Shown here: positions 8,469-15,545 of the stretch, piece after piece
Layout of the letters: the number at the start of each line of letters is the position of its first letter
How positions within the stretch are numbered: position 1 is the stretch's first letter
From: Halalkalirubrum salinum
GTDB lineage: Archaea; Halobacteriota; Halobacteria; Halobacteriales; Haloferacaceae
Assembly: GCF_005543295.1 (NCBI RefSeq)
Contig: NZ_SRSG01000021.1
Coordinates: forward strand, 1-34,393
Length of the DNA stretch: 34,393 bases
Direction: 5' to 3'
The notes under the pieces: generated by a model
Told to the model about the DNA's origin: nothing
Databases searched by the model: none
What the model saw: the letters and a program-made list of their open reading frames with translations, nothing else
Program-made: the position numbers and the translations under genes

Positions 8469-8542
8469 CGGGCTGGGCGCGATTTGAACACGCGACCGAC
8501 GGATTAAGAGTCCGTCGCTCTCCCTGACTGAGCTACCAGCCC
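8469..8542 (-). tRNA. tRNA-Lys (anticodon CTT)
   Basis: A 74-nt tRNA without intron. The acceptor stem GGGCTGG pairs perfectly with CCAGCCC. The D arm is GCTCAGTCAGGGAGAGC. The anticodon stem ACGGA/TCCGT holds loop CTCTTAA, giving anticodon CTT (Lys, codon AAG). The T arm is GCGTG-TTCAAAT-CGCGC, and G is the discriminator base. CCA is not encoded. A TATA-like cttttattc lies about 25 bases upstream on the minus strand, and a short T-run follows the 3' end. Confidence 0.96.
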
Positions 8543-13600: not shown

Positions 13601-13718
13601 AGGCGATGAGGTCGTTGCTCCCGGTGCATCGTGTCGAACCCAACTCGTCGACAAGCCGGGCGCGACCGAAAAGCCAGCCCATCCGATCGAGCGGGTTGCC
13701 GACGCGGTCAGTCGGTGA
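10626..13718 (+). CDS. FAD-linked oxidase / Fe-S fusion, D-lactate (2-hydroxyacid) dehydrogenase type
   Basis: A 1030-aa fusion of GlcD-like and GlpC-like halves. Residues 55-260 form the FAD_binding_4 domain (VLPRGGGTSLAGQTV), and 270-590 the FAD-oxidase C domain, ending with GEHGDGRART and the C-terminal LNPGNV. Two Cys clusters follow: CHGCGGC near 618 and CVSCKGCMKDCP near 682, each suited to a 4Fe-4S centre. The C-terminal part holds CCG-type motifs (HGHCHQK near 929, STCCGMAG near 960). Such proteins oxidise D-lactate or related 2-hydroxyacids and pass electrons to the membrane quinone pool. Substrate is inferred; glycolate is an alternative. The TATA-like aattta lies about 28 bases before the ATG, and the gene stands alone. 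Confidence 0.93.
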   Translation: MSSPSIPADTDPSDGDGSYNYVSEQVDRPDLVAALEARVDGDVRFDSYSKQLYATDASAYEATPIGVVMPKSTADVSNVVAYCAEREIPVLPRGGGTSLAGQTVSEAVVLDFTRYMDSVVDIDPDSATATAEAGTRLGELNAELGPHGLKFAPDPAWGDRSAIGGAIGNNSTGAHSLKYGKTDYYVESVEAVLADGTVTEFGETDIETIREAADPDADSLLPRIYAAVVSVVDDHAEEIRDRYPDLKRNVSGYNFDMLLDELEGKKRLPDNSGIDPDSQPGTVNLARLLAGSEGTLAIVTEATVSLEPVPETTAVALLTYPDIIDALSDVAPILEHDPAAVEVMDDVLLGLAADTAEFEDVVSLLPENTDSVLLVEFYADDAEHGRQQVADLLADRVPSVDPAGTPGERAAERTDDAIVAIDAMEAYDEETKAKFWKMRKSGLPILLSRTSDEKHIAYIEDTAIPAENLPAYVSEFQDVLDGHDTFASYYAHAGPGVLHIRPLVNTKTAEGVETFESIADAVTDLVVKYGGSVSGEHGDGRARTQWNRKLYGDELWEAFREFKRAYDPDWILNPGNVCGDHEMAENLRFDPDYEFDTGFDTALNWENENAYQGMAELCHGCGGCRGDQDTVGGVMCPTYRASHEEIQSTRGRANMLRQAMSGELPEEELLSEEFKSEVLDLCVSCKGCMKDCPSGVDMAKLKAEVTHAHHEEHGSSLRDKLFANFDTLAGLGSTFAPIANAAPKLPGSRAIIEKTVGIAADRTLPEFHRKTFIDWFDARGGAAIDREDARRSVVLFPDTYTNYNRPVAGKAAVRVLEAADVHVRLPNERITDSGRPPYSKGFIDIAKETARRNVDILAPLVEDGYDIVVNEPSDAVMFQSDYLDLLSGADVTALAANSYGVLEYVDAFRLDEHISFDASAADRSLTYHGHCHQKSTKKDHHAVGVLRRAGYAVDPLDSTCCGMAGSFGYEAEHREMSRAIGSILYDQVDASEGDEVVAPGASCRTQLVDKPGATEKPAHPIERVADAVSR

Positions 13719-13844
13719 GGTCTACACACCGGCCGAATCCGATCGACGGAACGCAGACCGTGAGCATATGAGTGACAATCGAATAACAGGTGGATTCAAG
13801 AGGGTGGCCTGTAATTATATATTTGCCGGGGTGCCTCTGACATA

Positions 13845-13981
13845 CCGGCATTTAGGTCGTTTGGACTACCTAAGCGGCCGCCTCGACGGTTCTGCCCGGA
13901 CCGTCGATCGCTGGGTGACTTTGCCCGGGTCACCCGGCTACGCGCCCGGTCGGCTACACAGTGGCCCTCCGGGTGTTTTCT
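13845..13981 (+). ncRNA. Candidate structured RNA: hairpin array with repeated loops
   Basis: The 342-base gap between the dehydrogenase and malQ contains no convincing gene. It does hold a very strong TATA element (aattatatattt, about 13813-13824), followed by four consecutive stem-loops. Stem 1 is TTAGGT/ACCTAA (13852-13873). Stem 2 is CGACGGT/ACCGTCG (13884-13906) with loop TCTGCCCGG. Stem 3 is GGGTGAC/GTCACCC (13913-13935) with loop TTTGCCCGG. Stem 4 is CCCGG/CCGGG (13945-13973), followed by gtgttttct, a possible terminator. Loops 2 and 3 differ by one base although the stems differ. The ends are approximate. It does not match tRNA, SRP or RNase P RNA by eye. Confidence 0.5.
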
Positions 13982-14060
13982 ACTCTCCCGAGCGATCGCG
14001 CCCGTGGATGTGTGTCGTTCGATCGGAAGGTTTGACAATACTGCGCCACGTGGGGCCTGT

Positions 14061-15545
14061 ATGGCATTCACTCGATCGAGCGGTATATTTTTGCACGTAG
14101 CCTCATTGCCGAGCGAGCACGGTATCGGCGATCTCGGTGCAGGCGCACGGTCGTTCGTCGACTTTCTGGCGTTAGCCGACCAAACCTACTGGCAGTTCTG
14201 CCCGCTCGGACCTACGGATCCAGGGTTAGGAAACTCCCCGTACCAGTCGTATTCCGCGTTCGCGGGCAACCCGCTTTTCATCGATCTCCACGACCTCGTC
14301 GAGCGAGGATGGCTCGAGAACGACGAACTCGGATCTCCGGAGTTCGATCCCCATAGCGTTGACTACGATGCCGTAGAAGCCTACAAAGAGCCACTGCTCG
14401 CCAGCGCAGTATCACGGTTCGACGAGGCGGCTAGCGAGGACGAACTGAACGCAATCGATGCGTTCGTCGAGGAGAACCAGTGGGTCGACGAGTACGCGAC
14501 GTACATGGTACTCAAATCGCGCTTCGACAGCCAACCCTGGCCCGAGTGGCCCGAGGAATATCGACTCCGCTTCCAGGGGGCAATGGAGGACGCACGCGAG
14601 GAACTCGCCGCGGAGCGCCGCTATCACATCGTGACACAGTACTGGTTTGACCGTCAGTGGGCGGCGCTTCGCGAGTACGCGGCCGATCGCGGGATCGAGT
14701 TCGTCGGAGACGTCCCGATTTACGTCGGCCTCGACAGTGTGGATGTGTGGGCGAATCCAGCGGCATTCCAACTCGACGAAAACAACCAACCGACCGCTGT
14801 GGCCGGTGTGCCGCCGAATCCCGGCGACGACGGCCAGCGATGGGGAAATCCGTTGTACGACTGGGATCGGCTGGCAGAATCGGAGTACGGTTGGTGGCTC
14901 GATCGCATCCGGCGGCTGTTCGACCTCGTCGACGTTACCCGTCTGGACCACTTCCAGGGTTTTCACGAGTATTGGGCGATTCCAGCAGCGTCGGACAACG
15001 CCGGCGACGGCGAGTGGCGCGATGGCCCCGGCGCAGCCTTCTTCGAGACGGTTGCAGACGAACTCGGTCGCGTGCCGTTTATTGCCGAAGATCTCGGCTT
15101 CCCCGACGAAGAACTGTTCGCGCTGATGGATCAGTTCGATCTGCCCGGAATGCGCGTTCCGTTGTACGCCGATTGGTGTCAACAGGGGTCCATGCACCAG
15201 CCGATCGAATACCCCGAGAACGTCGTCGCTTACACCTCGACACACGACACGAACACCGTCGTCGGCTACTATGAGACGCTCGGGGCCAGACAGCGAGAGT
15301 GTCTGCACTACAATCTTGGCACGGGGGGGAACGATATCGCGTGGTCGATGATCGACGCGGTATGGGACTCTGCGGCCGTGATCGCGATCACACCGATGTG
15401 GGACCTGCTCGGCTTGGGCTCGGAGGCACGGTACAACACGCCTGGAAGCCTCGAGGGCAATTGGAAATGGCGCTGTACCGAGGAAGGCTTCGATCGAGCG
15501 ATCGCCGACCGACTCGCCGAACTCACGCGACGACGCAGTCGCTGA
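14061..15545 (+). CDS. malQ: 4-alpha-glucanotransferase (GH77)
   Basis: A 494-aa MalQ/amylomaltase that transfers alpha-1,4-glucan segments in glycogen and maltodextrin metabolism in the cytosol. It starts with the family hallmark SSGIFLHVASLPSEHGIGDLG. Catalytic residues are visible: nucleophile Asp296 in VTRLDHFQGF, acid/base Glu343 in FIAEDLG, and Asp396 in TSTHDTNTV. NSPYQSYSAFAGNP (58-71) is also diagnostic. The ATG at 14061 is chosen because homology begins there and a ttgacaata element lies about 25 bases upstream; an in-frame extension to 14004 is not supported. The final codons are part of a 40-base tandem duplication. Confidence 0.96.
   Translation: MAFTRSSGIFLHVASLPSEHGIGDLGAGARSFVDFLALADQTYWQFCPLGPTDPGLGNSPYQSYSAFAGNPLFIDLHDLVERGWLENDELGSPEFDPHSVDYDAVEAYKEPLLASAVSRFDEAASEDELNAIDAFVEENQWVDEYATYMVLKSRFDSQPWPEWPEEYRLRFQGAMEDAREELAAERRYHIVTQYWFDRQWAALREYAADRGIEFVGDVPIYVGLDSVDVWANPAAFQLDENNQPTAVAGVPPNPGDDGQRWGNPLYDWDRLAESEYGWWLDRIRRLFDLVDVTRLDHFQGFHEYWAIPAASDNAGDGEWRDGPGAAFFETVADELGRVPFIAEDLGFPDEELFALMDQFDLPGMRVPLYADWCQQGSMHQPIEYPENVVAYTSTHDTNTVVGYYETLGARQRECLHYNLGTGGNDIAWSMIDAVWDSAAVIAITPMWDLLGLGSEARYNTPGSLEGNWKWRCTEEGFDRAIADRLAELTRRRSR

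Follow-up and report, generated by a model that had tools for sequence, protein, structure and literature searches.

The window analysed here, a stretch of 34,393 nucleotides from contig NZ_SRSG01000021.1 of the haloarchaeon Halalkalirubrum salinum, raises the question of what is encoded by a dense series of hairpins upstream of a 4-alpha-glucanotransferase gene. The original prediction had described a strong TATA box followed by four stem-loops that fit no known RNA family. The absence of a known family was borne out: Rfam 15 gave no match up to E = 5 in positions 13700–14060, and no such family was found in the searchable open literature. It is well supported, from the comparison of related loci, that the hairpins belong to a member of an unnamed small-RNA family of Halobacteria with its own promoter, a fixed start, and a shared structure. 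The predicted gene is located on the plus strand at 13825–13980 and is about 155 nt long, with both ends placed according to the family alignment, the fold, and the relatives. A tRNA gene on the minus strand (8469–8542) is the only Rfam match in the whole window.

Hairpins, start, and end of the predicted RNA

The fold energy of positions 13813–13990 calculated with RNAfold is −89.3 kcal/mol, compared with −63.1 ± 4.5 kcal/mol for 200 dinucleotide shuffles (z = −5.8), none of which matched the native value. The fold includes strong consecutive hairpins on the plus strand, as had been predicted, but their number is five instead of four; the first one had been missed. Hairpin 1 (13825–13849) consists of a GCCGG/CCGGC stem around GGTGCCTCTGACATA. 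It is recognized in the alignments and is matched at 13824–13850, with 39.2 bits, by R1, a covariance model restricted to the 5′ hairpin. No other part of the family is as well conserved, and the first 18 nt of this hairpin are near-invariant across the class. Hairpin 2 (13855–13879), supported by the fold and by relatives, has a 10-bp stem and the loop ACTAC. It lacks the loop motif described below. In Halohasta, Halonotius, and Natronocalculus, the hairpin at this position has a TGCCCGG loop; hairpin 2 of the window has kept a long stem and lost the motif.

Hairpins 3 (13883–13907; TCGACGGTTC-TGCCC-GGACCGTCGA) and 4 (13910–13938; GCTGGGTGACTT-TGCCC-GGGTCACCCGGC) are supported by the fold and by compensatory pairs. 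They share an identical TGCCCGG loop core (13893–13899 and 13922–13928, respectively) on unrelated stems of 8–12 bp, in agreement with the predicted pair of central stem-loops with different stems and near-identical loops. They are also the best (E = 1.1 × 10−4) and the second-best (E = 1.2 × 10−3) matches in the genome to R2, a model of the loop hairpin. A third copy of GCCCGG (13944–13949) had been counted in the prediction, but it belongs to one arm of hairpin 5, relatives do not conserve it, and it probably arose by chance. Hairpin 5 (13942–13976) is a two-part terminal stem with a GGCTAC...GTGGCC core, seen in the fold, and 7 of its 15 pairs are changed on both sides among relatives. It is probably a terminator hairpin. 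The TTTT run that follows (13976–13979) has a T run at the matching place in the relatives of alignment A3, a U-rich end is frequent among aligned members, and the RNA probably ends within this run. The GGCUAC...GUGGCC core is kept across the group of alignment A3, which exceeds the needs of a plain terminator.

The upstream region was compared among 76 nonredundant elements. Conservation sets in abruptly at G(+1), the first G of GCCGGGGTGCCTCTGACA. The sequence logo of the region before it includes TGA at −34 to −32, a TATA box at −29 to −25, a weak TA at −11/−10, and a pyrimidine at −1; a TATA-like promoter about 27 nt upstream of the start is common to the aligned members. In the window, the promoter element GTGGATTCAAGA (13790–13801), with the TATA-like core TTCAAG at 13796–13801 (−29 to −24), aligns with GGTGANNTAWAAG of the 76 relatives. 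The upstream pattern and the onset of conservation fit an archaeal promoter from which transcription would start at the first G of GCCGGGG, position 13825 in the window. The TATA box of the original prediction has to be given up: TTATATAT (13815–13822) lies at −10 to −3 of this start, too close for a promoter and away from the family position at −29 to −25, and it reads TCTATACATC in the sister genome, so it is not conserved. Most of the 76 elements were retrieved through an exact or near-exact match to the 18-mer, and therefore its invariance is partly a selection effect, while the model search revealed few genuine deviations from it.

Distribution of the family and its genomic neighbourhood

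In the family to which the window belongs, a blast-type search yielded one relative with 91% identity, which lies in the sister genome, along with numerous short matches; of the significant ones, most cover the same 26–30 nt at the 5′ end. These loci are built alike: GCCGGGGTGCCTCTGACA comes first, followed by a short linker, CCGGC, and hairpins with Y-TGCCCGG-R loops. The exact pattern was found in 71 of 391 members of the class. Named genomes contributed 61 stretches, including those from Haloferax, Halobellus, Halogeometricum, Haloplanus, Halohasta, Haloquadratum, Natrialba, Natronorubrum, Halostella, and Halorarius. Viral contigs, phages, and plasmids gave no hit to the exact pattern. An exact 18-mer does occur twice in non-haloarchaeal bacteria, with neither the promoter nor the hairpin beside it, and both occurrences are therefore put down to chance.

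A covariance search in related genomes had been proposed along with the prediction; run with R1, it showed 87 of the 391 Halobacteria genomes, from 28 of 86 genera, to carry the RNA. R1 was built from sequences of equal length; the MAFFT alignment is unreliable in the variable linker of hairpin 1. A TATA-like promoter and a UGCCCG-loop hairpin, neither of which is part of R1, are also present where the 5′ end of the match is altered (GCCGGAGTGCC, or a G missing). The copy number is mostly one per genome, with one to three copies in Haloferax genomes. Most sampled genera are negative, including every sampled member of the largest genus in the family of the window.

Several loci depart from the common layout. 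Extra divergent copies in Haloferax (L068–L074, L078, and L083) are located in other genomic contexts; the linker of hairpin 1 is longer in them, and their loops read AUGCCCG (CCGAGATGCCCGCTCGG). In five loci of genus g17 (L075, L076, L080, L081, and L118, the last from Haloplanus), the CCGGC arm is lost and the 18-nt 5′ sequence is intact, so the 5′ sequence itself seems important beyond hairpin 1. In L171 from Natrialbaceae, the promoter and the 5′ sequence are intact and the UGCCCG loop is lost from the downstream hairpin.

Upstream of the RNA, a divergent regulator gene with the domains HVO_A0261_N and FilR1_middle is present in 33 loci of the named set, from Haloferacaceae and Natrialbaceae, and its start is usually about 145 nt away. 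No ortholog of the regulator was found in the genome of the window or in the sister genome (best match about 30% identity), and both genomes keep the RNA; thus, the RNA does not depend on the divergent regulator. The gap between the two genes often contains an AT-rich inverted repeat, which is missing in the window. In loci L108–L168, this repeat (TATATAAATAACCG...ATTTATATA) is conserved at about −97 to −68 of the RNA start. It is possibly an operator or a back-to-back promoter of the divergent regulator.

Downstream, malQ (4-alpha-glucanotransferase, 14061–15545) is found in the window, in the sister genome, and in the group of Halohasta, Halonotius, and Natronocalculus. Other genera have a convergent DUF123 gene, genes of an ADP-forming acyl-CoA ligase region, a thioredoxin-reductase-like gene, or others at this place. 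Because the downstream gene and its strand vary by genus, and are often convergent, the RNA is likely to act in trans.

An invariant loop on changing stems

The original prediction had proposed conserved loops on non-conserved stems and had named homologous stems without compensatory changes as the contrary outcome. Nine relatives share the layout of this RNA, and among them both sides have changed in 22 of the 52 base pairs, compared with 11.5 in shuffles; none of 500 shuffles reached 22. Standard pairs occupy 93.8% of the pair cells in these relatives and only 20–42% after the columns are slid by one to three positions. The covariation of the loop hairpins is 0.939, against 0.280 when shuffled. 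The compensatory changes are thus far above the controls, and with the recurrence of the loop on unrelated stems in many genera they strongly support this part of the prediction.

The placement of the motif in hairpins was examined in 86 nonredundant relatives. Downstream of the 5′ hairpin, 68 of 107 TGCCCG sites lie in stems of at least 8 bp, compared with 5 of the 560 found elsewhere in these loci. Without selection for the motif, the loop of the first hairpin contains GCCC in 59 of 82 cases, and 67 of the 86 elements include a GCCC-loop hairpin with at least 7 bp. The number of Y-UGCCCGG-R loop hairpins ranges from one to three per RNA, and about half of the elements have a single one. A set of 51 loop hairpins combines an unchanging UGCCCG with variation on both sides of all seven stem pairs; this set was preselected for TGCCCG and for at least six of seven pairs, and therefore only the variety of the stems is informative there. 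In the genome of the window, the two copies in this RNA are the only R2 matches above chance, and no other locus carries the same loop hairpin beyond chance. The weak R2 matches inspected in relatives resemble coding sequence.

The compensatory changes point to an RNA and against a feature at the DNA level, such as a protein-binding site. The coding alternative is a short frame from GTG at 13831, the only start codon that the members share; the frame is open in the window and begins with VPLT in nearly all members. This candidate was rejected, since the loop motif occurs in all three phases (28, 18, and 33), the stops vary, and the wobble positions are as invariant as the rest; a coding or DNA-level feature can hardly be credited. 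A 5′ leader or attenuator of malQ, suggested by the position of that gene in the window, the sister genome, and the Halohasta, Halonotius, and Natronocalculus group, is highly improbable: the T run and the terminator-like hairpin precede malQ, and other or convergent genes follow the RNA in most genera. With no fixed co-directional downstream gene across genera, mRNA leaders and riboswitches in general were rejected as well.

Possible partners of the RNA

The invariant loop, the drifting stem, the presence of one to three copies, the own promoter, and the absence of a fixed neighbour suggest a trans-acting partner that recognizes the loop. The original prediction of repeated binding sites for a protein or a target RNA is sound as a tentative reading. 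Its proposed pairing with CCGGGCA near start codons is unsupported. An antisense RNA would use the UGCCCGG loops as exposed seeds for CCGGGCA in several mRNAs. A short, GC-rich, invariant word in a loop would suit such seeds, as would the conservation of the core and the geometry while the stems drift. C-rich seed loops are known from some Gram-positive small RNAs, such as the Rsa group, and the invariant C-rich word in the hairpin loops here resembles them, but here the complementary word is not enriched at translation starts. In 400-kb samples from two RNA-carrying genomes and one RNA-free genome, with heuristic gene calls, the start regions contain 0 (G006), 3 (G045), and 1 (RNA-free G118) copies of CCGGGCA, not beyond permuted 7-mers. 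The mRNA of the divergent regulator has no consistent CCGGGCA site, and sites near-complementary to the 5′ 15-mer show no excess over the control in seven genomes. Many haloarchaeal mRNAs are leaderless (PMC4983044). The antisense function is considered unlikely.

A structural or housekeeping RNA in a ribonucleoprotein would instead have the invariant 5′ hairpin as its core and the loop hairpins as accessory protein sites, in a stable complex and not a sponge. The mostly single copy per genome, the near-invariant 18-nt 5′ end across families, and the retention of the RNA in the genus of the window despite the loss of the divergent regulator are in its favour. The limited distribution, with 28 of 86 sampled genera positive and every sampled member of the largest genus of the family negative, argues against it, and the complementarity of the RNA to rRNA does not exceed that of shuffles; this role appears distinctly unlikely. 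C/D and H/ACA guide RNAs were rejected with the same rRNA result and no Rfam snoRNA match.

A protein partner is favoured for two reasons: no pairing targets emerged, and the core of hairpin 1 resembles the loop motif (GGUGCCUCUGAC versus YUUGCCCGGAC). It is quite possible, if short of probable, that the gene, present in single copy, encodes a trans-acting non-coding RNA (about 155 nt) and that an RNA-binding protein is bound, and probably sequestered, by its loops. Each UGCCCGG loop would be a docking site for one such protein, and the similar UGCC..GAC core of hairpin 1 may be a further docking site for it. The stem would merely hold the loop open, hence the drift of its sequence. The RNA would sequester or scaffold the protein according to its own amount, as CsrB and RsmZ do with CsrA and RsmA in bacteria, and with such a dose-dependent effect, the number of sites would be free to change between genera. 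Repeated sites would most simply serve sequestration, as they do in these systems. About half of the elements have a single loop hairpin, a poor basis for a titrating sponge, and a few members, such as L171, are without the loop motif; single-site members could serve as a scaffold instead. The invariance of the 18-nt 5′ sequence exceeds what a loop-binding protein alone would need.

The RNA shares with CsrB/CsrC and RsmX/Y/Z the repeated stem-loops, the short identical loop on unrelated stems, the species-dependent number of sites, and the lack of a tie to a downstream gene. It differs in the loop, which is GGA in those RNAs and UGCCCGG here, with overlap to GGA only in the form YUUGCCCGGA, and in having one to three sites and a near-invariant 5′ hairpin instead of many sites; the CsrB-type Rfam models gave no match here. 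According to a paper on H. volcanii, a single archaeal organism is known to have CsrA, and H. volcanii itself lacks it (PMC6104027). A class-wide archaeal counterpart of Csr, in which the RNA titrates an undiscovered haloarchaeal protein for UGCC-type loops and the divergent FilR1/HVO_A0261-type regulator controls its expression in many genera, would go further and is somewhat doubtful.

In size (about 100–200 nt), own promoter, and TATA box near −27, the RNA is similar to known haloarchaeal intergenic small RNAs, namely sRNA63, sRNA132, s194, s479, hts10, and H225.2R of H. volcanii, and those of H. mediterranei and of halite communities (itsRNAs). Most of these RNAs are reported from one species or genus only (PMC3956466, PMC6104027). 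Conservation is described for hts10 and H225.2R (PMC3956466) and for a 209-nt itsRNA of Halobellus limi (PMC7002113). These three, compared by description, might be members of the family. In the open literature, supplements aside, no RNA of such sequence or design was found by sequence words and topic. The haloarchaeal family is new relative to Rfam and the searchable open literature.

To our knowledge, archaea have hardly any known global regulators that bind RNA in the manner of CsrA. Most haloarchaeal small RNAs have been described as specific to one species. A small RNA gene whose near-invariant 5′ end recurs in at least 28 genera of several families, together with identical loops in modular form, is an unusual exception. 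The RNA offers a bait for its proposed partner protein, and its single-copy gene could be deleted in cultivable species.
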